Translations under genes and position numbers: made by a program
Shown: positions 48,911-64,000 of the stretch, piece after piece
Layout: the number at the start of each line of letters is the position of its first letter
How positions within the stretch are numbered: the stretch's first letter is position 1
Notes under the pieces: model-generated
The model's database searches: none
Told to the model about the DNA's origin: nothing
Seen by the model: the letters and a program-made list of their open reading frames with translations, nothing else
NCBI GenBank assembly: GCA_022510405.1
Contig: JAFLTP010000016.1
Location: 1 to 64,000 of the forward strand
DNA length: 64,000 nucleotides
Direction: 5' to 3'
DNA from: Muribaculaceae bacterium
Lineage (GTDB): Bacteria > Bacteroidota > Bacteroidia > Bacteroidales > Muribaculaceae

Positions 48911-48930
48911 AGAACCCCAATTCCATACAA

Positions 48931-48957
48931 AAGACGGTCAAATCGGCCGTCTTTTTT
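48931..48957 (+). terminator. Rho-independent terminator after rpmE2
   Basis: AAGACGGTC-AAATC-GGCCGTCTT followed by a T-run. Confidence 0.8.
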
Positions 48958-48981: not shown

Positions 48982-48989
48982 TATCTTTG
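48982..48989 (+). promoter_or_regulatory. -7 box TATCTTTG upstream of the NRPS-cluster operon
   Basis: Perfect TAnnTTTG, 8 bp before the MATE start codon; no clear -33 TTTG. Confidence 0.4.
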
Positions 48990-48997
48990 TAAACTAT

Positions 48998-50764
48998 ATG
49001 GCAAGCCGTAATCCTTATTTGGTGACACAAGCGTTGAAAACCTTCATGTGGGGTTCGATTCTTGCAGCCGTATCCTCTCAATTGGCCACAACCACAGACG
49101 CAATCGTGGTAAGTAACCTGATTGGTCCGGCAGCAATCTCAGCCATTAACCTTATGACTCCGGTACTCACTGTTTTTAGTTGCCTGATGATCCTTTTTGG
49201 CATTGGAGCAAGCATAATTGCTGCCAAAGCCATTGGAAGAAGGGATGAGAATTCGGCAAACGGAGTATTCACGGCCGCAATAATTAGTTCCGCAGGAAGC
49301 GGTGTATTACTGGCAATCCTCACTTTCTTGTTCAGTCCATTTATTGTTAGACTCCTTTCTGGAGGTAATGAGGAAATCTATCCTTTGGCTCTCAGTTACT
49401 TGCAGGTTATGTGTGTGGCCGTGCCATTCATGATGATGGCCGGTGTGATTGAAAATTTTGTAAAGATTGACGGAAGACCTCGGATAGTGATGACCGCAGT
49501 AATTATTGGCAGTTGTCTAAACCTTATTCTTGATATAGTATTTGTGAAATGGCTTCATATGGGCATAGCCGGTTCAGCATGGGCCACAGGGATAAATTAT
49601 CTTGTGGCTATCTTAGTCTGTTTCTGGCATTTCAGAAGTCCTTACAATTCTTTGAAATGGCATCCGGATTGGAAGATGATGAAGTCATATGTGAATCAAA
49701 GCGTATCCCAGGGTATGCCTATGAGCCTTAACACATTATTATTGGGTGGATGTATTTTGTTGATAAACTATATCGTGCTTTATGCTCAGGGAGCTGACGG
49801 CATATATTGTTGGTCGGTATGTCTGCAATTGTTTATGATTATGCAGATGGTGTTGACAGGAATCGGCTCGAGCATTTATTCCATAGGTGGTATACTTGTG
49901 GGAGAGCAAGATATGGAAGGACTTTCAATCCTTAACAGAAAGAGTGTTCTATACACTGTAGCTGCGCTAACAGTGGTGACAGTTGTCATTTTGATTTTTC
50001 CCGAATTTTTCGGAGAATTATTTGGAAGCAGGTCTGACAATCCGATTGAAATTCTGCCATATGCGTTAAGGGCATTCTCCATAATGTTAGTGCCTTATGT
50101 TGTAGTGGCTCTCCTACGTTCCACATATCAGATTTTAGGGAGGATAGGACTCAGTTTATTCTTGAGTATTTTTCAACTTGCCCTGATGGTGGGATTCGTG
50201 TTTGCATTTTCCTTTATAAGTCCATTTGTGATGTGGTGGGGATTTCCATCTTCATCAGTTGCTTTATTGATAGGTCTGTGTTTATATACGGTTTATTTGC
50301 ATTATAAATATAAAGACTTGCGCTATTTTACTCTTATTCCGAAAATGGAAGACTCGGAATCCATTTCGATATCTGTGAAAATGAATCCAGACAGCGTGAA
50401 CGAGGCAGATAAAAAAGTTTCTGAGTTTTTGAAACATCAATCGATTGACGATTTGACTAATTATAAAGTAAGATTAAATTGTGAAGAATTGATGCACAAT
50501 ATTTTGAATCACGCTGTGACTCGCAAAAAGGAAAAGCATTATTTCGACCTGAGTATCAGGATTCTTAAAGACTCTGTCAATGTTTTATTGAAAGATGACG
50601 GGCGCCCTTTCAACCCGATTTTGTCTTGCGACAAGATAGATTTGGAATCAGAATCCGTCGACCAATTAGGATTGAAACTTGTGAACTGCACAGCCGATTC
50701 CATCAATTATAAATACATGTACGACCAGAATGTCGTGACACTTAATTTTATCCGTCAACAATAA
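48998..50764 (+). CDS. MATE family efflux transporter fused to C-terminal HATPase (anti-sigma-factor-like) domain
   Basis: 12-TM MATE body (residues ~1-450), then ~125-aa cytosolic tail with N-box (RLNCEELMHNILNHAV), G1 (LLKDDGRPFNP) and degenerate G2 (VDQLGLKLV). Confidence 0.85.
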   Translation: MASRNPYLVTQALKTFMWGSILAAVSSQLATTTDAIVVSNLIGPAAISAINLMTPVLTVFSCLMILFGIGASIIAAKAIGRRDENSANGVFTAAIISSAGSGVLLAILTFLFSPFIVRLLSGGNEEIYPLALSYLQVMCVAVPFMMMAGVIENFVKIDGRPRIVMTAVIIGSCLNLILDIVFVKWLHMGIAGSAWATGINYLVAILVCFWHFRSPYNSLKWHPDWKMMKSYVNQSVSQGMPMSLNTLLLGGCILLINYIVLYAQGADGIYCWSVCLQLFMIMQMVLTGIGSSIYSIGGILVGEQDMEGLSILNRKSVLYTVAALTVVTVVILIFPEFFGELFGSRSDNPIEILPYALRAFSIMLVPYVVVALLRSTYQILGRIGLSLFLSIFQLALMVGFVFAFSFISPFVMWWGFPSSSVALLIGLCLYTVYLHYKYKDLRYFTLIPKMEDSESISISVKMNPDSVNEADKKVSEFLKHQSIDDLTNYKVRLNCEELMHNILNHAVTRKKEKHYFDLSIRILKDSVNVLLKDDGRPFNPILSCDKIDLESESVDQLGLKLVNCTADSINYKYMYDQNVVTLNFIRQQ

Positions 50765-50780
50765 TAACCATTCTCATTAT

Positions 50781-53700
50781 ATGACCAACGCATTCCTCCA
50801 ACCCTTTTGGAACACTTTTGAAAAATACGGCGACAATATTGCCATAGTGGATAAACACGGAAGAAAGACTTCTTATAAGGAATTATATGACCTCATAAGA
50901 AGAGTGGCCTATTCATTGGATAAAATGAACCTACCTAAAAATTCATTTATCCCTATATATTTGCCAACTTCGATGGAATATATAGCAGCCATGATGGCAA
51001 TCTGGATGACCGGTCATACACCGGTTCCTATGGGTCATTCATATCCTGCTGAAAGAATTGAATTCATAAAACGACATAGTGAAGGTCCTATAGTGATCGA
51101 TGAAGAATTATTTGATAAGTTATCGTCCACCTCTGAAAAATATTCCAATCATCAGGAACATAGAATGGATGAAAATGCTTTGATGATCTACACAAGTGGG
51201 TCAACCGGAGAACCCAAGGGTATTGTACATACCTTTGAAAGCCTTCTTTTCGGAAATCTATATGGAATTAAATCACCGGTGGATCCATCCCAAAAATGGG
51301 GAGCCACTGCTCCTTTATATTTCATAGCGGGAGTCACTATAAATTTCAAAGTTTTAAGAGGCGGAGGTGAACTCCATCTATATGATGATGAGATAAGATT
51401 CGACCCTATAAAAATGGCTGAATATATTTCCGACAACGGTATCACCCATACCTTTATCAGTCCTTCGATGCTTGGGAATTTCAAGAATCATTCTAAGTCA
51501 TTAAAAACAGTCTATGCAGGAAGCGAGAAAGTTTCCAACCAAAGCAGTCGCGACGGTTACACTCTTTATAATATCTTTGGAATGAGTGAAATGGTTGGTG
51601 GAATTCAACCCTTCAGGGTAGACAAACCATATGATGCAACTCCTATCGGTTATCCGGATAAAGAATCCGGCTTTGATTTCAGGATTATTGACAACGAGGG
51701 CAATGATGTGCCCCAGGGCCAAGACGGTGAATTGATTGTTAAGGGACATTTTGCAAAAGAATATTATAAGGATCCCGAGAAGACGGCAAAATTGTATGAC
51801 AAGGATGGTTGGCTTCACACCGGAGATGTCATGCGACTCCTTCCCGATGGCGCATTGCAGTACGTAAATCGCAAAGACTGGATGGTGAAAATCAATGGCC
51901 AACGTGTGGAACCGGGTGAAGTTGAAGCCGTGATGAGGAAAGTTGACGGTGTAAAGGAAGCTATCGTTAAAGGTTTTAATTCCGATAATGGTAGTCAATT
52001 CATTTGTGGATATTTTATTGCAGATCAGGATTCAGAAATAACTCCCGAACAAATTAAGGAAGAGTTATTGAAAAAACTTCCTTCATATATGGTGCCTCGC
52101 CATATTGTTAAGATGGATAGATTTCCTTTACTTCCCAATGGTAAAGTGAACCGTAAAATATTGGAAGCACCGTCAGCCGATGATTTAAAGGTGGAATTTG
52201 TAGCGCCACGAAACAACACGGAAAAAGAACTTTGTGATGCTTTCGCAGAGGTGTTTAATCTTACACAGGTGGGTATCGAAGATGATTTCTTCTTGCTTGG
52301 TGGAGACAGCATCAAGGTGATGAAACTCCAGCAATTGTGTAAGAATCTTGACCTGACATCAAAACTGATTTACAAGGAACGAACACCTAAAAATATCGCA
52401 AAAGCACTAAGCCATAAAATATCTGAATCAGTGAAATATGACTTAGAAACTCCGGTTACCCTTACCCAGACTCAAGCCGGGATTTTTGCTGAATCAATGG
52501 CCCGTCTTGGGGAAGCTTCATACAATATTCCACAGTTATTTGAATTAGGAAAATCCGTTGACCTAAATAAACTTGTAAAGGCTATAGAAAAAGTTATTGA
52601 GGCACATCCTTTCTTGAAGGTAAAGATCCGAGAAGATAAGGAAGGAAATCCTATGTTGATACCTCAAGATTATAGATATGAACAAAGAATTAAAAAGATA
52701 TCCCAAAATGATTTTGACAATATGGTTAACAACCTTATCCAGCCATTCAATATCATTAAGGATCCTCTTTTCCGTATAGAACTTTTAGAGACAGATAAGA
52801 ATAAATACCTCTTTATGGATTTCCATCATATCATCTATGATGGCACATCCATGAAAATATTTCTTCAGGACTTGAACAAAGCATACTCGGGTGGTGAAAT
52901 TGAACCTGAATCTTTCAATGGGTTTGATATAGCTTTGGAAGAGGAAGGCTTAAGGAAAACTGAAGCCTATCAGGAAGCTAAAAATTGGTATGAAAAATCT
53001 TTCGGCAGCCTCGAAATCGACAGTATGCCTGTGCCTGACACACATGTAGATACTGTAGCTTTTCAATCTTATGACTATCCTTTGGAATTGAGCGTGGAGG
53101 CTATGAATAAGTATTGTGAGAAAACAGGGATATCTCCGAATATCTTAAATATTTCAGCATTCGGTAAACTCTTAGGTACTTTTGTCAATTCAAAGGAAGC
53201 TCTTTTTGCAACTATCTACAACGGACGAAACAGCGGCAAAGTGGAGAGAACCATCGACATGATGGTGAAAACCTTGCCGGTTTATTGCAAATGGGATTCT
53301 GATACAAAAATTGTAGAATATCTGAAATCTATGCAGCAACAGATTTTGGGCGCAATGAACAATGACATCTATTCTTTTGCGGAATTGGCTGCTGAAACAG
53401 GTATCAACAGCGATATTCTTTTTGCTTACCAGGGCGATTACCTATCAATAGACAATTTGCTTGATTTCCAGGTTAAGGAAATTCAACTCCAAAGAAACGC
53501 CACCGGCTCACCTCTCGACTTTCAAGTCTTCATCAAGGATGGGAAACTTATCCTTCATGCAGAATACATGAGCAACCGGTTTTCCCAGAAGTTTATCGAG
53601 GAAATGTGCCTAAGTTATTCCTCCATTATCAAATCAATGACTGAATATGATTTGATGAATGAAGTGGAATTGACTACAAAGGATCAGATTTTAGAACTTG

Positions 53701-56700
53701 ATAGTTTCAATAATACTGACGTTGCTTATGATAATTCGCAGACTGTAATAAGTCTTTTTGAAAAAGCGGCACTTTCCTATCCCGAAAATACAGCTGTGAT
53801 ATTTGAGAATAGGAAATATTCTTATAAACAAACCGATCAAATCACAGATAAGGTAGCAGCCGAAATTGAATGTCGAGGTCTTGGAGAAGGTGATGTAGTA
53901 AGCATTCTTATTCCTCGTAGCGAATGGATTGTTATGGCTTCTTTAGGAGCCTCAAAAACCGGTTGCACATACCAACCTCTTGATCATACATATCCGAAAG
54001 ACAGGTTAAACTTCATGGTGAAAGATTCAGGAGCCAAACTTTTAATTACCACCGAGTCTCTTAGAGAATCTTTGGATGAGTATGAAGGTGATGTTCTTTA
54101 CATTTCCGATATTGAAAAGAGCACAAAACAAAGAAGCCATACAGATAAAACGAAACCGGAGACTTTATTCACGCTTCTTTACACAAGCGGTTCCACCGGT
54201 GTACCCAAAGGAGTGAAACTTGACCATGCGAATCTTGTCTGCTTTATCGATTGGTACATAAAATATTATAACCTCAAAGCGGGCGATTGTGTTGGTGCAT
54301 ATGCATCCTATGGCTTTGATGCGAATATGATGGACATGTATCCGGCTCTTTGCAATGGTTCGGCTGTATGTATAGTGCCGGAAGATATACGTCTGGATAT
54401 GGAGAGACTTAATTCATATCTCATGGAAAATGGTGTCACCCATATGTTTATGACAACCCAGGTTGGTAGGCAATTCGCAAGTGATATTGAAAAGACATCT
54501 TTGCAGTATTTAAGCATGGGTGGAGAGAAATTGATTTCCTTCCCGGTTCCTGACAATTATAAAACTTATAATGTTTACGGACCGACAGAATGTACGATTT
54601 TCTCATCTATTTATCCTTTGAAGAAAGGTGAAACGGATATTCCAATCGGAAAGATACTCGACAATATGAAGGGTTATATTGTCAATGAAGAAGGGAAACG
54701 TGTTCCGGTTGGAGCCGTGGGAGAACTATGGATCGCAGGGCCACACGTTGCTGAGGGTTATTTGAATCGACCGGAAAAAACCGCTGAAGTATTCATTATG
54801 AATCCTTTTGACGAAGGAGATTATGTGAAAGTGTATCGCACAGGCGATATGGTGAGATATCGTGCCGATGGAAATATTGACTTCGTTGGAAGAAGTGACG
54901 GACAGGTCAAGATTCGTGGATTCCGAATCGAGCTTAGCGAGGTAGAGGCCGTAATAAGAGAGTTTGAGGGAATAAAAAATGCTACCGTAATGGCATACGA
55001 CCATCCTTCCGGAGGTAAATATATAGCGGCATATGTGGTTAGTGACAAACCTGTTGATGTTAATGCTTTGAATGATTTCATACGCGAAAGCAAACCTCCT
55101 TATATGGTGCCGGCTATAACCATGCAGATAGAAAGTATCCCTCTTAATCAGAATCATAAGGTGAATAAGAGAGCTCTTCCGGTACCTGAATTCAAGGTGG
55201 AGAAAGATTCAGCTGACAACAACCGTCCTTTAAATGTTCTTGAAAAAGAAATTCTTTCAATCGCAGAAAAAGTATTGGGAAATGAAGGATTAGGTGTTAC
55301 TACTCCATTTACCGATTATGGTCTCACTTCAATATTGAGCATCAAGCTTGCGTCACAACTTTATAAGAGATTTGAGATTGAAATTCCTTCCAAGTCACTT
55401 TTGAATGGAGGAAGCGTCGAATCGGTTGAAAATATCATACTCAATCAGTTGATTAACTGTGAAAAATCTGATGCGCCATCAATAAAAACCGAAGAGACTA
55501 AGATCACATCCTCTCCCCTCTCCTTCCCACAGACCGGGGTATATTTCGAATGTATGAAACGTCCTGCGGATGTGACGTACAATATTCCGGCAATGTTTAA
55601 ATTCGACAAGGGAGTGACGGTTGAAAAACTGGCCGAAGCTGTCATTTCTATTATAGGAGCACATCCTTTCTTGGCTTCCAAGTTCGAAAATACGGAAAAC
55701 GGAGTCATGCAAGTTCTTATTGAGGATCATAAACCGGAGGTCAAGATTTCACAAATGAACGAGGAGGAGCTTGATTCCTATAAAAATTCATTTGTAAAAC
55801 CTTTTCATCTTTCTAATGGTCCACTTTATAGAATTGAAATAGTAGATACCGGTGATAACAAATATCTTCTCACCGATTTCCATCATTTAGTGTTCGATGG
55901 GACCTCCCTGGATATCTTCCTGCATCAATTACAAGACTCATTGAATGGGAAGGTTCCTGAACCTGAAAATTACGACTATGCCAAATACGTGGCGGATGAG
56001 AAGGAATTTGAAAAATCTCAAAGCTTCGAAGAAAACAAACAATATTTTGCTGAACTTTTAAGCGAATTGGAGAATGTAAGCGAAATTCCTAATGACCTTA
56101 AAGGTAAGGAAGCAGAAGGAAAACTAAAGAATGTTGCTGAGCCTTTCGACCTGGATAAGGTTGAAAAATATGCAAAACAGCTCGGTGTGACACCGGCGTC
56201 CGTTATGTTGGCTTCAACTTTCTATACCGTTTCAAGATATGTCAACGATTCAAATGTTTATCTCTCCACAATAAGTAGCGGAAGAAGCGATGTAAGGACA
56301 GGCGAAACGTTCGGCATGTTTGTCAACACGCTGCCTCTTGCCTTTAAGATTGGGGATGAATCAACCGAGGAATTCATCAAAAGAAGTGCCGGTGTGTTCC
56401 AAGGAGTTCTTGAACATGAGAAATATCCATTTGCGAAGATTGCTGCAGATTATGGCTATAAACCTGAAATTGTATACGAATATCAGTTGGGAGTGATCGG
56501 TGAAAATGATTTTCCTGAACTCAAAGGAATGGAAAGTTTGGAACTTGATGTGGCCAAATTTAAAGTTTCGGTACATATTGAACTTGCTGATGGAAAACCT
56601 TCCGTTGTAGTATATTACAATGATGCTCTTTACAGTCAGAGACTTATGGAGGGAATGGCGAGAAGTATCGTGATTGTTACTGATAAACTTCTTCAAGAAC

Positions 56701-59700
56701 CCGCTAAGAAGATAAAGGAGGTCAACCTCATCGATGACAAACGTGAAGGAGAACTTGAAAAATTCCGCACTGTAGCGATTGCAGATCCAAAATTCCATTA
56801 CTTCCAGGAGGCCGTGGAATATTATGCCAAGGAAAGACCTGATAGAACTGCACTAATCGCTTGTGATGCAAAATATACTTACAAGGAATTTGATGAAACC
56901 GCAAACATTATTGCAAACAATCTGATTAAACTGGGAGTTAGACCCAGAAGTAAGGTTGCCATCCTTTTGCCACGAACTTCAAAGGTGATTCTATCAATGT
57001 ACGGCGTAATGAAAGCAGGAAGTGCATATATTCCTTGTGATCCTGAATATCCCGTGGATAGGATACAGCATATCTTGAATGACAGTGAGGCCGCTTACGT
57101 CATAACCACTGCCAACCGTCTGAAAGATTTCAGTAATGCCATCGATGTGGAAATGCTGTTGAAAGGTGATTCATCCCGACCAAAACTTGAAATAACCCCC
57201 AAAGATCTTGCTTATCTTATTTATACTTCGGGATCCACCGGCAAACCGAAAGGTGTAATGCTTCGACATGAAAGTATAGCCAACTATCTTCTCGATAATC
57301 CTGCCAATACTCACATTCATGCTTTGGCTACAAGAGCCAATACCCTTCTTTCCATCACCACTATATCTTTCGATATGAGTCTTAAGGAAATCGGAGCAGC
57401 TCTGAATAATGGTTTGACCCTTGTATTCGCGGATGAAGAACAAACCACCAATCCTATTACCCTTTCAAAGCTTTTCAAGGAAACGAATGCGGATGCTTTC
57501 AACACAACACCTTCGAGAATGCTCCAGTTCATGGAACTGCCTGCCTTTGCGGATGCTATAGGTCAATGTAAGGTGATTATGTGCGGTGGTGAAAAATATG
57601 CCGACGGTCTGCTTGACAAACTGCGTGCGGCCGCTACGGAAGCTCAGATTTTCAATACTTATGGACCAACGGAAATTACTGTCTCTTCGAATTGTAAGGA
57701 TCTCACGCACACTGACCGTGTCAGTGTGGGCAAACCCCTTTTGAACGTCACTGAATTTGTGGTTGACAAAGATGGCAATGAACTTCCGGCAGGTATTGTA
57801 GGGGAACTTTACATCAGTGGTCTTGGCGTTGCTACGGGTTATAACAATCTTTCCGAAATGACAGCTGAAAGATTTATAGATTACAAAGGATTGAGAATTT
57901 ATAAGTCGGGTGACTATGCAAGGTGGACAGAGGAAGGCGATGTTGAAATTCTTGGTAGAACCGACAACCAGATAAAGCTCCGCGGATTGAGAATAGAACT
58001 CGGAGAGGTGGAAGCTGCAATTGCAGCCGTTCCTGGTGTAAAAAATGTCGTGGTCAAGATTGTAAAGATTAAAGGTGAGGAACACCTTGCTGCTTATTTT
58101 GTGGCCGACCATAAAATTGATATTTCCGAACTTAAAAACGAACTTGGAAAGAATCTCACCAAATATATGGTACCCACAGCCTATCTGCAAATGGATAAGT
58201 TCCCCCTTACTCCAAATGGCAAGACTGATGTCAAGTCTCTTCCTGCCCCTGAAATAGCACTTACCGGTGAATATGAAGCTCCGGCTAATGAAACCGAACA
58301 GAATATCGCAGATATTTTCGCTAAAATTTTGAAACTCGACAAAATTGGAGCTAATGACAGCTTCTATGAGTTAGGTGGAACTTCTCTTGTAACTACCCGT
58401 GTAATCATTGAAACAGATAAGTTAGGTTATAATGTTGCATATGGTGATGTTTTTGCCAATCCCACGCCCAGAAAACTGGCTAATTTCATTCTTGGAATTT
58501 CTGATGAAGACAAGGAAAAGGATGATGTGAAGGATTACGATTACTCGGCTATCAACGCTCTACTCAGACAAAATAATCTTGATGCTTTCCGTTTGGGAGA
58601 GAATATCCCGCTTGGCAAAGTTTTGCTAACCGGAGCCACTGGTTATCTTGGCATTCATATTCTTAAGGAACTTATAGATTCAGATGCTGAGGAAATCTAT
58701 TGCCTTGTAAGGTCAAAGGATACAAAAGAGGCTGAAGAACGATTGAAAACACTTTTGTTCTATTATTTTGAGAATACATTCGATAATCTCATCGGCAGAC
58801 GTCTGCACTTGATTCCCGGAGATGTCACATCCCCAATTGATACTTCAATCAAGACAGATACCCTTATCAACTGTGCGGCGATTGTAAAACATTTTGCAGA
58901 GGGAACAGAAATCGAGGATGTAAATGTCGGTGGAGCTCAACATTGTATCGATTATTGCCTCGCCACAGGAGCCAAAATTATTCAGATTTCAACAGCAAGC
59001 ACACGCGGCTTGAGTGTAAATGGCATTCCGGCTCCCGGCAAAATTTTCAATGAGGAGAGACTTTACATGGGTCAATATCTTGGAAATAAATACATTCTTT
59101 CTAAATTCATTGCAGAAAGAATGGTGCTGGAGGCTGTGGCAGCCAAGGGTCTTGTAGGAAAAATTATGCGTGTGGGTAATCTTGCCCCAAGAAGCACTGA
59201 TGGTGAATTCCAGGTAAATTTCCAAACAAATTCCTTTATGGGAAGATTGAAGGTTTACAATATGCTTGGATGTTGCCCATTTGATTCAAGAGACCTCACC
59301 GTTGAATTCTCTCCGATAAATGAAGTTGCAAAAGCGATTGTGAAACTCTCCGGCACTCCCAAGGAATGTGTTGTATTCCATCCCTACAACAATCATAATG
59401 TATTGTTCGGCGATGTGCTAAGTGAACTGCGTCACATAGGGGATGGTGTAAAATTTGTAGAAATCGACAAATTCTCAAAAGCTTTGGAAGAAGCTAAGGA
59501 AGACCCCATAAAAGCTAAACAATTGTCAAGTCTTTTGGCTTATCAAAATATGGCTAAAGGACAAAAGTCATCAGATGTGCTTCGGCAGAATGCCTATACG
59601 ATGCAGGTGCTTTATCGTCTCGGATTCTCATGGTCGGTAACTTCCTGGGATTATGTCGATAGATTTATAACCGCGATCGAAGGCCTCGGCTTCTTCGACT

Positions 59701-59705
59701 CATAA
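50781..59705 (+). CDS. Non-ribosomal peptide synthetase, A-T-C-A-T-C-A-T-R
   Basis: A cores YTSGSTGEPKG (~51.2 kb), YTSGSTGVPKG (~54.2 kb), YTSGSTGKPKG (~57.2 kb); T sites LGGDS (~52.3 kb), YGLTS (~55.3 kb), LGGTS (~58.4 kb); C sites HHIIYDG (~52.8 kb), HHLVFDG (~55.9 kb); terminal reductase LLTGATGYLG (~58.6 kb) with YILSK. Confidence 0.93.
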   Translation: MTNAFLQPFWNTFEKYGDNIAIVDKHGRKTSYKELYDLIRRVAYSLDKMNLPKNSFIPIYLPTSMEYIAAMMAIWMTGHTPVPMGHSYPAERIEFIKRHSEGPIVIDEELFDKLSSTSEKYSNHQEHRMDENALMIYTSGSTGEPKGIVHTFESLLFGNLYGIKSPVDPSQKWGATAPLYFIAGVTINFKVLRGGGELHLYDDEIRFDPIKMAEYISDNGITHTFISPSMLGNFKNHSKSLKTVYAGSEKVSNQSSRDGYTLYNIFGMSEMVGGIQPFRVDKPYDATPIGYPDKESGFDFRIIDNEGNDVPQGQDGELIVKGHFAKEYYKDPEKTAKLYDKDGWLHTGDVMRLLPDGALQYVNRKDWMVKINGQRVEPGEVEAVMRKVDGVKEAIVKGFNSDNGSQFICGYFIADQDSEITPEQIKEELLKKLPSYMVPRHIVKMDRFPLLPNGKVNRKILEAPSADDLKVEFVAPRNNTEKELCDAFAEVFNLTQVGIEDDFFLLGGDSIKVMKLQQLCKNLDLTSKLIYKERTPKNIAKALSHKISESVKYDLETPVTLTQTQAGIFAESMARLGEASYNIPQLFELGKSVDLNKLVKAIEKVIEAHPFLKVKIREDKEGNPMLIPQDYRYEQRIKKISQNDFDNMVNNLIQPFNIIKDPLFRIELLETDKNKYLFMDFHHIIYDGTSMKIFLQDLNKAYSGGEIEPESFNGFDIALEEEGLRKTEAYQEAKNWYEKSFGSLEIDSMPVPDTHVDTVAFQSYDYPLELSVEAMNKYCEKTGISPNILNISAFGKLLGTFVNSKEALFATIYNGRNSGKVERTIDMMVKTLPVYCKWDSDTKIVEYLKSMQQQILGAMNNDIYSFAELAAETGINSDILFAYQGDYLSIDNLLDFQVKEIQLQRNATGSPLDFQVFIKDGKLILHAEYMSNRFSQKFIEEMCLSYSSIIKSMTEYDLMNEVELTTKDQILELDSFNNTDVAYDNSQTVISLFEKAALSYPENTAVIFENRKYSYKQTDQITDKVAAEIECRGLGEGDVVSILIPRSEWIVMASLGASKTGCTYQPLDHTYPKDRLNFMVKDSGAKLLITTESLRESLDEYEGDVLYISDIEKSTKQRSHTDKTKPETLFTLLYTSGSTGVPKGVKLDHANLVCFIDWYIKYYNLKAGDCVGAYASYGFDANMMDMYPALCNGSAVCIVPEDIRLDMERLNSYLMENGVTHMFMTTQVGRQFASDIEKTSLQYLSMGGEKLISFPVPDNYKTYNVYGPTECTIFSSIYPLKKGETDIPIGKILDNMKGYIVNEEGKRVPVGAVGELWIAGPHVAEGYLNRPEKTAEVFIMNPFDEGDYVKVYRTGDMVRYRADGNIDFVGRSDGQVKIRGFRIELSEVEAVIREFEGIKNATVMAYDHPSGGKYIAAYVVSDKPVDVNALNDFIRESKPPYMVPAITMQIESIPLNQNHKVNKRALPVPEFKVEKDSADNNRPLNVLEKEILSIAEKVLGNEGLGVTTPFTDYGLTSILSIKLASQLYKRFEIEIPSKSLLNGGSVESVENIILNQLINCEKSDAPSIKTEETKITSSPLSFPQTGVYFECMKRPADVTYNIPAMFKFDKGVTVEKLAEAVISIIGAHPFLASKFENTENGVMQVLIEDHKPEVKISQMNEEELDSYKNSFVKPFHLSNGPLYRIEIVDTGDNKYLLTDFHHLVFDGTSLDIFLHQLQDSLNGKVPEPENYDYAKYVADEKEFEKSQSFEENKQYFAELLSELENVSEIPNDLKGKEAEGKLKNVAEPFDLDKVEKYAKQLGVTPASVMLASTFYTVSRYVNDSNVYLSTISSGRSDVRTGETFGMFVNTLPLAFKIGDESTEEFIKRSAGVFQGVLEHEKYPFAKIAADYGYKPEIVYEYQLGVIGENDFPELKGMESLELDVAKFKVSVHIELADGKPSVVVYYNDALYSQRLMEGMARSIVIVTDKLLQEPAKKIKEVNLIDDKREGELEKFRTVAIADPKFHYFQEAVEYYAKERPDRTALIACDAKYTYKEFDETANIIANNLIKLGVRPRSKVAILLPRTSKVILSMYGVMKAGSAYIPCDPEYPVDRIQHILNDSEAAYVITTANRLKDFSNAIDVEMLLKGDSSRPKLEITPKDLAYLIYTSGSTGKPKGVMLRHESIANYLLDNPANTHIHALATRANTLLSITTISFDMSLKEIGAALNNGLTLVFADEEQTTNPITLSKLFKETNADAFNTTPSRMLQFMELPAFADAIGQCKVIMCGGEKYADGLLDKLRAAATEAQIFNTYGPTEITVSSNCKDLTHTDRVSVGKPLLNVTEFVVDKDGNELPAGIVGELYISGLGVATGYNNLSEMTAERFIDYKGLRIYKSGDYARWTEEGDVEILGRTDNQIKLRGLRIELGEVEAAIAAVPGVKNVVVKIVKIKGEEHLAAYFVADHKIDISELKNELGKNLTKYMVPTAYLQMDKFPLTPNGKTDVKSLPAPEIALTGEYEAPANETEQNIADIFAKILKLDKIGANDSFYELGGTSLVTTRVIIETDKLGYNVAYGDVFANPTPRKLANFILGISDEDKEKDDVKDYDYSAINALLRQNNLDAFRLGENIPLGKVLLTGATGYLGIHILKELIDSDAEEIYCLVRSKDTKEAEERLKTLLFYYFENTFDNLIGRRLHLIPGDVTSPIDTSIKTDTLINCAAIVKHFAEGTEIEDVNVGGAQHCIDYCLATGAKIIQISTASTRGLSVNGIPAPGKIFNEERLYMGQYLGNKYILSKFIAERMVLEAVAAKGLVGKIMRVGNLAPRSTDGEFQVNFQTNSFMGRLKVYNMLGCCPFDSRDLTVEFSPINEVAKAIVKLSGTPKECVVFHPYNNHNVLFGDVLSELRHIGDGVKFVEIDKFSKALEEAKEDPIKAKQLSSLLAYQNMAKGQKSSDVLRQNAYTMQVLYRLGFSWSVTSWDYVDRFITAIEGLGFFDS

Positions 59706-59715
59706 TTGAAGGGAT

Positions 59716-61071
59716 ATGAAAACCATAGATTATAAAACAGCAGTAAAGTTAATTGAAGAAGGAGGCTCTCTCTCAAAAAAAGAAAGAATGAGACTTCAAA
59801 ATCAACGCTTGCATGAACTGGTGGAATATGTTAGGTTAAATTCTCCTTATTTCAAGGAACTCTATAGGGATTTACCGGAAAATTTTACTTTGGAAGATCT
59901 TCCTATCACTACCAAGAAAGCCATGCAGGATAATTATAGCGAGTGGCTAACAAACCCTGATTTAAATAAGGATGTCGTCAGGAAATATCTTGATCGGGAT
60001 ATTTCTGACAATTCTTTGTTATTGGATAAATGCACTGCCTTGCAGACAAGTGGTTCCACTGGTGAACCCCTAATGATGGTTCGGGATGATTACCATAACA
60101 AAATACATGGAGCATTAGTGAATCATCGGTTGATGAGAGGATTGGATCCAAATATATTAAATCCTTCGAAATATAAAATTGCAACCGTGATACACACCTC
60201 TCCGGGAGCCTCAAGCTACAATGGTTATCTTCGGGCACTGGCAGCCTTCCCGGATTATGTGCAGAATATGTTGGCTATTTCTGTTTTGGAAGATATTGAT
60301 ACTATCGTAAAGAAACTGAATGATTTTCAACCCGATGTTGTAACTGGTTATGCCTCCTCGTTAATACTTCTTGCAAAAGAAAAGAAGGAAGGGAGATTGA
60401 ATATTAATCCGAAATTGATAGCCAATTCAGCAGAACTGCTTTCGGATAAAGGTTATTTTGAACTTGAAGATGCATTCCGTTGCAAAGTAATCAATAATTA
60501 TTGCATGACTGAGGGAGGTGAAGTGGCAATGGCAAATGGAGGTCCTGAAATGAAACTCAATGAAGATTGGGTTATCGTGGAACCGGTGGATAAAAATCTT
60601 CTACCGGTGAAGGATCGCACCAAATTTTCAGACGGAATTCTTATAACAGATCTAAGTAACTTCGTGCAACCAATAATCCGTTATTACGTGGGTGACAGAG
60701 TGAAAATTGTAGAACCGCAAGACCACACATCACTTCCTGAATTGAAGATTGACGGCCGGACACATCCATTTTTTACTTTGGCTGGGAAGAAATACACAAT
60801 GGTATTTATTCTTACTAAAGCAGAAGTGTGGCCCGGATTAATGAAAATTCAGGTTGTACAGATTTCCCCCGACACTCTTGAAATAAGAGGGGTATGTTTC
60901 CCGGGTGAAAATCCAAATGAAGTTTTGGATGGATTGAGTAAACAATTGGAAAAATATTTTCACGATAACGGATGCAAAGGAGCACATGTCACTTACTCTT
61001 TGCAACCTCTTCTCCATAATAAAAAAGGCGGTAAAATTCCTGAATACGTTAATTTGATGAATCAGGATTAA
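59716..61071 (+). CDS. PaaK/F390-synthetase-like adenylate-forming enzyme
   Basis: LQTSGSTGEPLMMVRDD, NNYCMTEGGEVA, VQPIIRYYVGDRV; no attached carrier domain. Confidence 0.8.
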   Translation: MKTIDYKTAVKLIEEGGSLSKKERMRLQNQRLHELVEYVRLNSPYFKELYRDLPENFTLEDLPITTKKAMQDNYSEWLTNPDLNKDVVRKYLDRDISDNSLLLDKCTALQTSGSTGEPLMMVRDDYHNKIHGALVNHRLMRGLDPNILNPSKYKIATVIHTSPGASSYNGYLRALAAFPDYVQNMLAISVLEDIDTIVKKLNDFQPDVVTGYASSLILLAKEKKEGRLNINPKLIANSAELLSDKGYFELEDAFRCKVINNYCMTEGGEVAMANGGPEMKLNEDWVIVEPVDKNLLPVKDRTKFSDGILITDLSNFVQPIIRYYVGDRVKIVEPQDHTSLPELKIDGRTHPFFTLAGKKYTMVFILTKAEVWPGLMKIQVVQISPDTLEIRGVCFPGENPNEVLDGLSKQLEKYFHDNGCKGAHVTYSLQPLLHNKKGGKIPEYVNLMNQD

Positions 61072-61084
61072 GAGAGCATTGTAA

Positions 61085-63325
61085 ATGGTTAAGAGTTCCA
61101 TTAAGAGAATCAATAAAGCCATCGGAGCCAACGGTATTTTTCTTATCGTTGTTGCGGCTGCATTGCTGATTGCCATTTACATTATAATGTACCAATTCAC
61201 ACGTAATGAGATTAATGAAGATGTGAAACTAAGGGCCCAAAGTGAACTCTCGGCTAAAAGTCTCACAATTCAGAAAATCATGAATGAGGTGGAAACTGCC
61301 GTTAGAAATCATGCTGATGATGTCACAAGATTTATAAATCATCCGGATTCAATGTTTTCTGTTGCTAAAAATCTGGTGGAATTGAATCCGAATATAACAG
61401 GCAGTTCAGTTTCTTTCATAGAAAATTTCTATCCATCTCGGGGTAAATGGTTTGAGGCTTATGCTGTAAGGGATTCAGTGGGAAATATTTCAACCATGCA
61501 ACTTGGTTCGGAAACTCATGACTATTTCAAAAGTGAATTTTTCATTAAGCCGGTAAATTTAGGCAAAGCCGTATGGACAAATCCTTATCTTGACAGTGAA
61601 GGAGCCAAGATGATGCTTACCACCTATTCGGTGCCGATATATGACAATCAAGGGAAAGTAATCGCTGTCCTGGATGCCGATATTTCTTTAGATTGGCTTG
61701 ATGAAGTGTTGACAGTGGAATACGCATATCCCTCGAGCTATCATGTTCTGCTTTCCAAAACTGGACAGTTGATGTCGGTGGCAGACAGAAATTTCTTGAT
61801 GAAAACTATTCCGGAAATGAGTGAGTCATATGGTAATGACACTTTTCTTCCCTTAAATGACGGAATGTTATCAGGAAAAACCGGTGAAACCATTATAGTA
61901 GATAAAAAAGGGAATAAATACCAATCTTTTTATATGCCGGTTGATGATGATACGGGTTGGTCAATCGCGATAATTAATTCTGAAAAGGAAATCTTCGCGG
62001 ATTTCCATAAGATGCGTGTCACTCTTCTGTGGCTAAGTATTGCAGGATTTTTAATTTTGGTTCTTATCATACTGAGAACGATCCTTAATATTAAAAAACT
62101 TGAGAAAGTTTCTACGGAACGTGAAAGAATCAGAAGTGAACTGCAGATCGCTTCATCTATACAGTCGGGTATGTTGCCTAAAGAAAATGTTTTGGAGGGG
62201 GCAAATGAAAAGATCGATATAGAACCTTATCTGGAACCGGCAAAAGAAGTCGGAGGTGACCTTTATGATTACTTCATAAAAGATAACTTCCTATACTTCT
62301 GTATCGGGGACGTAAGTGGCAAAGGAGTGCCGGCATCTCTTTTCATGGCTGTGGCACGTTCTCTTTTCAGGGCTTTGGCTTCAAATTCTGTGGAACCCTC
62401 CAAAGTGATTTACGGAATGAACAATACCTTGGCGGAATTTAATGAAAAGGAAATGTTTGTGACTTTATTTTTAGGAATCCTTGATTTAAAGACCGGTAGA
62501 TTAAATTATTGCAATGCAGGACATGATGCTCCTGTTATTTTAGACTCAAATGGAGTCGACTCCATAAATGTGTTTCCTAATCTTCCTTTGGGAATTTTCC
62601 CGGATTTCGATTTTAAGCAACAGATGGTGCAGCTCCGAAAAAATTCAATCCTTTTTCTTTTCACTGATGGTGTCACTGAAGCAATGAACATTGAAAAGGA
62701 AGAATTCGGCGAAGAAAGATTGATGCGGGATCTTAAGAAGATTTACTCTAACAAGTTAAATATAAGTCCCAAAGAATTGATTTCTGAACTCTTGTTTATG
62801 ATCAAAGATTTCGTAGGAAAAGCCGAACAAAGCGATGATCTCACCATGCTTGCTTTCAAATTCAATAGGTCTGACTCATTTGTGGAACAACATATTTCTT
62901 TAAAGAATAATATAAATGAAATCGGCAAATTAAATAACTTTGTAGAAAATATTTGCACACAACAAAATCTTCCGCCGGAACTTATCATGGATTTGAAATT
63001 GGCTATTGAAGAGGTTGTAGCGAATACCATAAATTATGGTTTTGACAAAATTGAGGATGCTAAAATATCGGTTAGTCTGAAATTTAAACCTAATGAAGTT
63101 CTAATTGAAATAAAGGATAATGGAAAGGCTTTTGATCCTACAATATCATCGGAAGTAAATATTGATGCTGCTTTGGAAGAACGAACCATCGGAGGTTTAG
63201 GACTTTTCTTAGTCAAGCAACTCACCGATTCCATCTCATACCGACGAGTTGATAACCTAAATATCCTCTCCCTCTCCAAAAATTACAATAACAACAATAA
63301 CAACAATAACAACAATAACAACTAA
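61085..63325 (+). CDS. Membrane sensor (Cache-like) - PP2C/SpoIIE phosphatase - HATPase protein
   Basis: Two TM helices flanking an extracytoplasmic domain; SSIQSGMLPKE...EVGGDLYDYF...GDVSGKGVPASLFMA; C-term LKLAIEEVVANTINYGF...IKDNGKAFDP...GGLGLFLVKQ. Confidence 0.88.
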   Translation: MVKSSIKRINKAIGANGIFLIVVAAALLIAIYIIMYQFTRNEINEDVKLRAQSELSAKSLTIQKIMNEVETAVRNHADDVTRFINHPDSMFSVAKNLVELNPNITGSSVSFIENFYPSRGKWFEAYAVRDSVGNISTMQLGSETHDYFKSEFFIKPVNLGKAVWTNPYLDSEGAKMMLTTYSVPIYDNQGKVIAVLDADISLDWLDEVLTVEYAYPSSYHVLLSKTGQLMSVADRNFLMKTIPEMSESYGNDTFLPLNDGMLSGKTGETIIVDKKGNKYQSFYMPVDDDTGWSIAIINSEKEIFADFHKMRVTLLWLSIAGFLILVLIILRTILNIKKLEKVSTERERIRSELQIASSIQSGMLPKENVLEGANEKIDIEPYLEPAKEVGGDLYDYFIKDNFLYFCIGDVSGKGVPASLFMAVARSLFRALASNSVEPSKVIYGMNNTLAEFNEKEMFVTLFLGILDLKTGRLNYCNAGHDAPVILDSNGVDSINVFPNLPLGIFPDFDFKQQMVQLRKNSILFLFTDGVTEAMNIEKEEFGEERLMRDLKKIYSNKLNISPKELISELLFMIKDFVGKAEQSDDLTMLAFKFNRSDSFVEQHISLKNNINEIGKLNNFVENICTQQNLPPELIMDLKLAIEEVVANTINYGFDKIEDAKISVSLKFKPNEVLIEIKDNGKAFDPTISSEVNIDAALEERTIGGLGLFLVKQLTDSISYRRVDNLNILSLSKNYNNNNNNNNNNNN
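63287..63322 (+). repeat. (AATAACAAC)4 nonamer repeat encoding a C-terminal poly-Asn tail
   Basis: Four exact 9-bp units directly before the TAA stop. Confidence 0.95.
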
Positions 63326-63330
63326 ACTCA

Positions 63331-63633
63331 ATGAAAACAACAATCAAAGAAGAAGGAGATAAAATTTTAGTGACACTTGAAGGCGATCTTGACACTGCTG
63401 CTGCTCAGGAAACAGAAAAAGATTTCCAAACCCTTATGAATGCCAAAGACAAGAATATCATTATAGATTGCAAGAATTTAAACTATATATCTTCAAGTGG
63501 TCTTAGACTGTTCCTGAGTCTTCTTAAGAGTTGCAAACCAAACGGAAACTCTCTCACTCTTGAGAATCTTAACGACAACATCAAAAAGGTCTTCACAATG
63601 ACCGGATTCTCCTCGCTTTTCAATATCAAATGA
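63331..63633 (+). CDS. STAS domain anti-sigma factor antagonist-like protein
   Basis: 100 aa; KNIIIDCKNLNYISSSGLRLFLSLLK with candidate phospho-Ser. Confidence 0.88.
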   Translation: MKTTIKEEGDKILVTLEGDLDTAAAQETEKDFQTLMNAKDKNIIIDCKNLNYISSSGLRLFLSLLKSCKPNGNSLTLENLNDNIKKVFTMTGFSSLFNIK

Positions 63634-64000
63634 TTTATATTGAGGATTTAACTAAAAAGACTTCTCAAAAAGAGCAATCGGAAATAGGGCGTAAACTGCT
63701 GTTACGGGGTTTACAAACTGAATACGGTATAACTCAAATACCCGAAATTTTTTTTGCAGAATTTGGTAAGCCTTTTTTCAAATCTCATCCTCAAATTCAT
63801 TTCAATATCAGTCATTGCCAGAAAGCAGTGGCTTGCATACTTTCTCATAATGAAGTAGGAATTGATGTAGAAAGCATCAATCCTTTCGATAAAGATTTAG
63901 CCGAATATATCTCTAATGATGAAGAATTAAAATGGATTCTTAACCATCATGATCCGGCTCTCGCTTTCACAATTCTTTGGACCAAGAAAGAAAGTTATTG
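63630..64000 (+). CDS. 4'-phosphopantetheinyl transferase superfamily protein (truncated by window end)
   Basis: Translated by hand from ATG at 63630: MIYIEDLTKKTSQKEQSEIGRKLLLRG...FNISHCQKAVACILSHNEVGIDVESI...LWTKKESY, with Sfp-type GIDVE and WTKKES motifs. Confidence 0.85.
   Translation, partial: MIYIEDLTKKTSQKEQSEIGRKLLLRGLQTEYGITQIPEIFFAEFGKPFFKSHPQIHFNISHCQKAVACILSHNEVGIDVESINPFDKDLAEYISNDEELKWILNHHDPALAFTILWTKKESY

Follow-up and report, generated by a model that had tools for sequence, protein, structure and literature searches.

Background

Partner switches of the RsbW type are known mainly as controllers of sigma factors, with a few other outputs such as diguanylate cyclases. In the systems of RsbW and SpoIIAB, of HsbR/HsbA (PMC6482189) and of SiaC/SiaD (PMC8457831), a GHKL domain of this class binds a STAS protein, PP2C and GHKL activities together set the phosphorylation of the latter, and something other than a sigma factor can be the output. 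The window analysed here, a stretch of 64,000 nucleotides from a Muribaculaceae genome, encodes such components in one operon with a MATE exporter. It shares with the Bacillus systems RsbW/RsbV/RsbU and SpoIIAB/SpoIIAA/SpoIIE a GHKL domain, a STAS protein with a putatively phosphorylatable serine and a PP2C phosphatase, but differs from them in that a 12-TM exporter carries the GHKL domain, a second GHKL domain is fused to the phosphatase, and no sigma factor of the SigB/SigF type was found.

The non-sigma switches come closer in architecture. HsbR/HsbA (and HsbD) of Pseudomonas aeruginosa and CrsR/CrsA of Shewanella likewise unite PP2C and GHKL kinase on one protein (REC-PP2C-GHKL in HsbR), which sets the phosphorylation of a STAS protein that then binds other targets (PMC6482189). 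The corresponding protein in the window has a Cache sensor instead, and the presumed target is the GHKL tail of a transporter rather than FlgM, a diguanylate cyclase or RpoS. In SiaABCD of P. aeruginosa the phosphorylation switch acts by direct activation of a protein, SiaC binding to SiaD, and not by transcription, as is proposed here; SiaD, however, is a diguanylate cyclase that has no GHKL receiver, and no transporter is involved (PMC8457831, PMC7647112). SypE/SypA of Vibrio fischeri also pairs a kinase/phosphatase protein with a STAS protein for a non-sigma output, but neither a transporter nor a second GHKL domain is known from it (PMC10120452).

Among transporters, the SulP/SLC26 family likewise carries a switch-type domain at its cytoplasmic end, although that domain is the opposite partner, STAS, and the transporter fold is different (PMC8256260). 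ClbM (4z3n), MbnM, SolL and WgkD are NRPS-associated MATE exporters encoded, like the exporter of the window, in natural-product clusters. The window MATE has weak matches to NCBIfam families of NRPS-associated MATEs, far under their cut-offs, and ClbM is also matched by Foldseek; the solved MATE structures matched show no GHKL tail, in contrast to the window protein. No paper on a MATE-GHKL fusion was found in the open-access literature (subscription journals and preprints lay outside the search).

The MATE-GHKL protein

The first gene of the operon is an uninterrupted reading frame that starts with ATG and encodes a single continuous protein with the following features.

48998-50764, + strand: MATE-GHKL fusion, 588 aa, operon gene 1 (full-length model pTM 0.79)
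48998-50335, + strand: MATE body, aa 1-446, 12 TM, DinF type (MatE E 2.1e-28)
49097-49099, + strand: codon of Asp34 in TM1, aligned with the coupling Asp D40 of BhMATE and invariant in 33 fusions
50360-50752, + strand: GHKL tail of RsbW/SpoIIAB type, aa 455-585 (HATPase_c_2 match, fold model, Foldseek)
50474-50509, + strand: N-box CEELMHNILNHAV with E497 and N501, E497 at the position of the conserved Glu in SpoIIAB
50594-50617, + strand: G1 box DDGRPFNP with D533 and G535 (Asp in 41/42, Gly in 42/42 non-degenerate tails)
50618-50659, + strand: ATP-lid region, weakly modelled (residues 543-554 with pLDDT <50)
50660-50683, + strand: reduced G2 box DQLGLKLV, with Gln in place of the first Gly (a Gly present in only 13/42 tails)

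The analysis confirms that this product is a DinF-type MATE exporter with a C-terminal GHKL domain of RsbW/SpoIIAB type. MatE (PF01554) covers the body in two stretches, its best PDB relative by sequence is BhMATE/DinF-BH (E 9e-56), and its model superposes on PfMATE and DinF-BH with TMt 0.79-0.86 in Foldseek. In the PDB sequence alignment, the column equivalent to D40 has D for 5c6o, and the mutant chain 5c6n has N there. The full-length model consists of 12 TM helices followed by the GHKL domain, and pLDDT falls below 50 only in the ATP-lid region. Cation-coupled export of a substrate is the predicted function.

The original prediction had read the tail as an anti-sigma/HATPase-like domain from an N-box CEELMHNILNHAV, a G1 box KDDGRPFNP and a reduced G2 box DQLGLKLV. 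All three motifs are present, and the GHKL assignment is borne out by domain search, PDB-profile search and fold comparison alike. HATPase_c_2 (PF13581) matches aa 463-582 with E 2.4e-9 (37.7 bits, the cut-off being 27.4), and a HMMER alignment to 1tid gives the equivalence of the N-box to that of SpoIIAB. A profile of 39 tails searched against the PDB returns SpoIIAB (5e-5) and RsbW (4e-4) as first matches. The AlphaFold2 model of the tail, built on the alignment from which this profile was made (pLDDT 82.4, pTM 0.79), has the GHKL fold, with the order beta-alpha-alpha-beta-beta-alpha-beta-beta. The first outcome that would have refuted the original prediction, a tail of some other fold, does therefore not apply. 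Its top 23 Foldseek matches are SpoIIAB, RsbW, UsfX, LvrC and Rv1364c, several of them complexes with STAS partners; histidine-kinase catalytic domains follow, and SiaB is among the weaker matches. The tail thus has the N-box Glu and Asn and the G1 Asp and Gly of its class (E497, N501, D533, G535) but not a complete GxG in the G2 box, and because of this incomplete G2 no kinase activity is claimed for the protein of the window.

The operon

Downstream of the fusion gene lie five further genes on the same strand, with gaps of 16 bp (between the MATE gene and the NRPS gene), 10, 13 and 5 bp, and finally a 4-bp overlap.

48929-48955, + strand: terminator-like stem-loop (11-pair stem, then a T-rich tail) between the operon and an upstream 84-aa gene
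50781-59705, + strand: NRPS, 2974 aa, A-T-C-A-T-C-A-T-R with terminal reductase (domain search and local HMMs)
59716-61071, + strand: adenylate-forming (CapK/PaaK-like) protein, 451 aa (TSGSTGEPL seen by eye; position kept in relatives)
61085-63325, + strand: PP2C (SpoIIE) phosphatase, 746 aa, with a Cache-type sensor at the N-terminus and a GHKL tail of its own (Pfam)
62918-63280, + strand: GHKL domain of the PP2C protein with complete motifs EVVAN, DNGKAFDP and GGLGLFLV (motif scan)
63331-63633, + strand: STAS protein, 100 aa, with YISSSGLR (STAS 1e-17)
63493-63495, + strand: codon of Ser55 of the STAS protein
63630-63998, + strand: phosphopantetheinyl transferase, continuing beyond the window end (ACPS 4.6e-9)

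The operon therefore encodes PP2C, GHKL and STAS together, the set that makes up a partner-switching module. The PP2C protein matches MCP-like_PDC_1 (9.8e-21), SpoIIE (7.8e-49) and HATPase_c_2 (1.5e-20) in Pfam; the CapK-like protein has no Pfam match. Ser55, whose column is invariant in the aligned STAS proteins, is the candidate phosphorylatable serine, which we take to be the equivalent of the phosphorylated Ser58 of SpoIIAA. Judging by the gene neighbourhood, the export substrate is presumably made by the NRPS and is probably a C-terminally reduced tripeptide.

Two minor features were seen in the operon. The PP2C-GHKL protein ends, just before the STAS gene, in an asparagine run encoded by AAC/AAT repeats (63287-63322), which is missing from the relatives examined and is possibly unstable in length. 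The sequence TATCTTTG at 48982-48989, 8 nt upstream of the MATE ATG, has the form TAnnTTTG and matches the Bacteroidetes -7 motif; as TAnnTTTG is not common to most relatives, no promoter is claimed here. No sign of a mobile element was seen.

Distribution of the fusion

Relatives were collected from a scan of genome contigs and from searches of the genus and the order (contigs L125, L126, L127 and L130 were not used in comparisons). Muribaculaceae MAGs are the nearest named relatives, and the window is placed taxonomically by them. The collection comprises 48 different sequences of a MATE with a tail, the tail being degenerate in six, in addition to a degenerate paralogue in the window genome; once near-copies are merged, about 38 distinct non-degenerate fusions combining MatE with HATPase_c_2 remain. 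The hosts are Muribaculaceae, rumen Prevotella, other Bacteroidales, Acetobacterium, Lachnospiraceae and Selenomonas, with only a few of the fusions contributed by Firmicutes. Across an alignment of 33 fusions, drawn from Bacteroidota and Firmicutes, no sequence deviates at E497, D533, G535, P537-P540 or N578. The comparison of sequences confirms that the tail motifs are not there by chance, because the same fusion, at 81% to about 23% identity, occurs in dozens of genomes, and this recurrence likewise rules out a read-through or chimera artefact. The fusion is neither chimeric nor unique, and the sub-family is recurrent and old. The earlier statement that MATE exporters normally occur on their own is true of the other MATEs sampled (23 plain MATEs), but the fusion is no one-off.

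Two main cluster types recur among the fusion loci. The type of the window comprises MATE-GHKL, NRPS, CapK, PP2C-GHKL, STAS and PPTase; the second, of variable order, comprises PP2C-GHKL, STAS, a C-A-T-C-A-T-R NRPS, MATE-GHKL and PPTase. By hand count, a PP2C and/or STAS gene accompanies the fusion in the fetched neighbourhood of at least 22 distinct loci, usually next to an NRPS with terminal reductase, and neither was seen at about six loci; some ten more, at which the contig or the fetched flank ends, were left out of the count. An intact N-box without a visible PP2C or STAS gene occurs at L069, L074/L075, L083/L085 and L086.

Several variants of the theme were encountered. In Acetobacterium and a related Bacillota MAG, a sodium:dicarboxylate symporter (SDF) gene with an N-terminal degenerate GHKL-like region (L083:903-2540, L085:6832-8469) adjoins CapK, MATE-GHKL and NRPS genes. 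An unfused GHKL protein of 131 aa (L099:779-1174), which groups with the MATE tails in the tree, is encoded between the reductase end of an NRPS and a PP2C gene. A short reading frame between STAS and NRPS genes (L098:9902-10162) fuses, without a change of frame, the first ~25 residues of the MATE and the latter half of the GHKL tail, by internal deletion or assembly error. A GHKL domain fused to an MFS protein in L088 was considered and dropped, no GHKL domain being recognisable there.

The genome of the window has two HATPase_c_2 domains above the cut-off, one SpoIIE domain and one stand-alone STAS protein, all encoded in the operon. Of 111 genomes of the genus, the 11 with strong SpoIIE matches are also the 11 with stand-alone STAS proteins, and the fusion is found in nine of these 11 and in none of the other 100 (hypergeometric P 1.1e-11, a value that overstates independence because the genomes are related). 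In the remaining two genomes (G115, G116) PP2C-GHKL and STAS genes stand beside an ABC transporter and there is no MATE-GHKL; an NMT1-like binding protein was recognised by eye at these loci (L113:15501-18176, L115:7558-10232). This STAS type can consequently have another target, and the switch may serve other transporters. A MATE of the same clade but from another family (L120:10256-11578) has no tail remnant in any frame, while its cluster retains PP2C-GHKL, STAS, NRPS and PPTase; the tail can thus be lost while the switch remains. The link that had been drawn between the tail and the STAS protein of the window is supported by the operon, by the genome-wide counts and by the comparison of loci. 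A strict one-to-one dependence of tail and switch is not supported, given the tail-less MATE, the two genomes with a switch and no fusion, and the few fusions without a visible switch.

Two kinds of GHKL domain

The MATE tails and the PP2C tails differ in their nucleotide motifs. In the 42 non-degenerate MATE tails the N-box Glu is kept in all and the Asn in 38, and the second Gly of G2 is found in 41, in contrast to the first. Every PP2C tail located by motif scan has GGLG. A full G2 with short lid (GTGLGLMLV) is present in the sister type-2 clusters, and on the sequences compared the reduction of G2 characterises the subfamily to which the window protein belongs. In a GHKL tree from an alignment of only 128 columns, the PP2C tails group with the stand-alone RsbW-like domains in a clade (support 99) that has no MATE tail inside, which indicates that the two GHKL types are old and distinct; within the limits of this short alignment, the idea that the PP2C tail was recently copied onto the MATE is rejected.

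Decayed tails without an N-box occur in MATE copies outside the module (L033, L044, L052, L073). One of these is a second MATE with C-terminal tail in the window genome itself (L033:4885-6819, contig G000:C64), 37% identical to the fusion, with neither a PP2C nor a STAS gene adjoining it on its 7.4-kb contig. In the MATE tree, which was made by a quick method and has several long branches, one branch (96) has all 23 plain MATEs on the same side, and L033 and L044 nest within the intact fusions. We interpret the retention of an intact tail with the switch, and its decay without, as the best sequence evidence that the job of the tail is to meet the switch.

Discussion

We consider it somewhat probable that the operon is a self-contained partner switch with the exporter as its output, in which docking of the STAS protein on the MATE tail gates or tunes export. 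A signal would be sensed by the Cache domain of the membrane PP2C-GHKL protein (61085-63325), whose GHKL domain would phosphorylate Ser55 of the STAS protein and whose PP2C domain would dephosphorylate it on signal. One form of the STAS protein, most likely the unphosphorylated one, would then dock on the GHKL tail of the exporter, a receiver with weak or absent kinase activity, and so gate or tune export of the NRPS product. From the genes and their neighbourhood we infer that the STAS protein binds the tail, how the two GHKL domains share their tasks, how transport is affected and what is exported. Export is probably controlled directly by protein phosphorylation, because the switch-type domain of the exporter and the rest of the switch share one operon.

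The original prediction had left two alternatives, phosphorylation or sequestration of the STAS protein by the tail. The sequences favour the docking role of the MATE tail over a kinase role because the PP2C protein, which that prediction did not mention, has its own complete RsbW-type kinase domain, and the latter is favoured as the kinase/phosphatase of the STAS protein because its nucleotide motif is complete, compared with MATE tails that mostly lack the first Gly of G2. However, a catalytic-type Glu in 42/42 tails is more than a pure docking site needs. Together with the Asn in 38/42, the near-invariant G1 box and the complete short-lid G2 of the type-2 clusters, it speaks for a rather unlikely alternative, in which the tail would be an active kinase of the STAS protein and the exporter would be a sensor, so that kinase activity would be set by transport state or substrate load and STAS phosphorylation would report export, with an output elsewhere in the operon or cell. 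The kinase-type GHKL already present in the operon, the loss of the first G2 Gly in the window's subfamily and the lack of a visible downstream STAS target argue against it.

A further, distinctly improbable role for the tail is that of a membrane anchor, which would tether the STAS protein and, through it, the PP2C protein or the biosynthetic enzymes, and thereby co-localise synthesis and export without gating. This is consistent with the conserved NRPS neighbourhood and with the 131-aa tail-like protein near NRPS and PP2C genes in L099, which makes transporter-free docking possible, but nucleotide-site residues kept in nearly all non-degenerate tails would be superfluous for a mere anchor. 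The reduced G2 of the window and the decayed paralogues, one of them in the same genome, could also mark the tail as a fading remnant with no current function; we regard this as very doubtful, since its core residues are conserved across phyla like the coupling Asp of the transporter, and decay affects copies away from the module and not those in operons. An anti-sigma role, in which the tail would keep a sigma factor at the membrane in the way that RsbW retains SigB, is suggested by the SpoIIAB/RsbW fold and sequence class but is set aside as hardly credible, because the only Sigma70_r3 proteins of the window genome are two RpoD-like factors encoded elsewhere, with no cognate alternative sigma factor among them, and neither the operon nor the neighbours examined gave a recognisable sigma factor.

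Tentatively, the reading of the MATE-GHKL protein as a receiver may be extended to the whole class in Bacteroidota and Firmicutes: a phospho-controlled STAS protein would plug a GHKL receiver and gate the export of natural products, with transport rather than transcription as the output. If this is true, a switch wired to an exporter would amount to post-translational control of secondary-metabolite export. The hosts are gut and rumen bacteria with largely uncharacterised NRPS products, for which the signal of the Cache domain would offer a handle on when the clusters are active, and such a switch would make export control open to direct tests.

Two observations concern other switch and sigma genes in these bacteria. 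The two RpoD-like factors of the window genome (L122:220-1959, contig G000:C9), of 287 and 286 aa, are encoded in direct tandem, 15 bp apart. Genomes of rumen Prevotella (G506, G508, G511 and others) hold as many as 26 genes for SpoIIE-type phosphatases each, far above the numbers in the Muribaculaceae searched.
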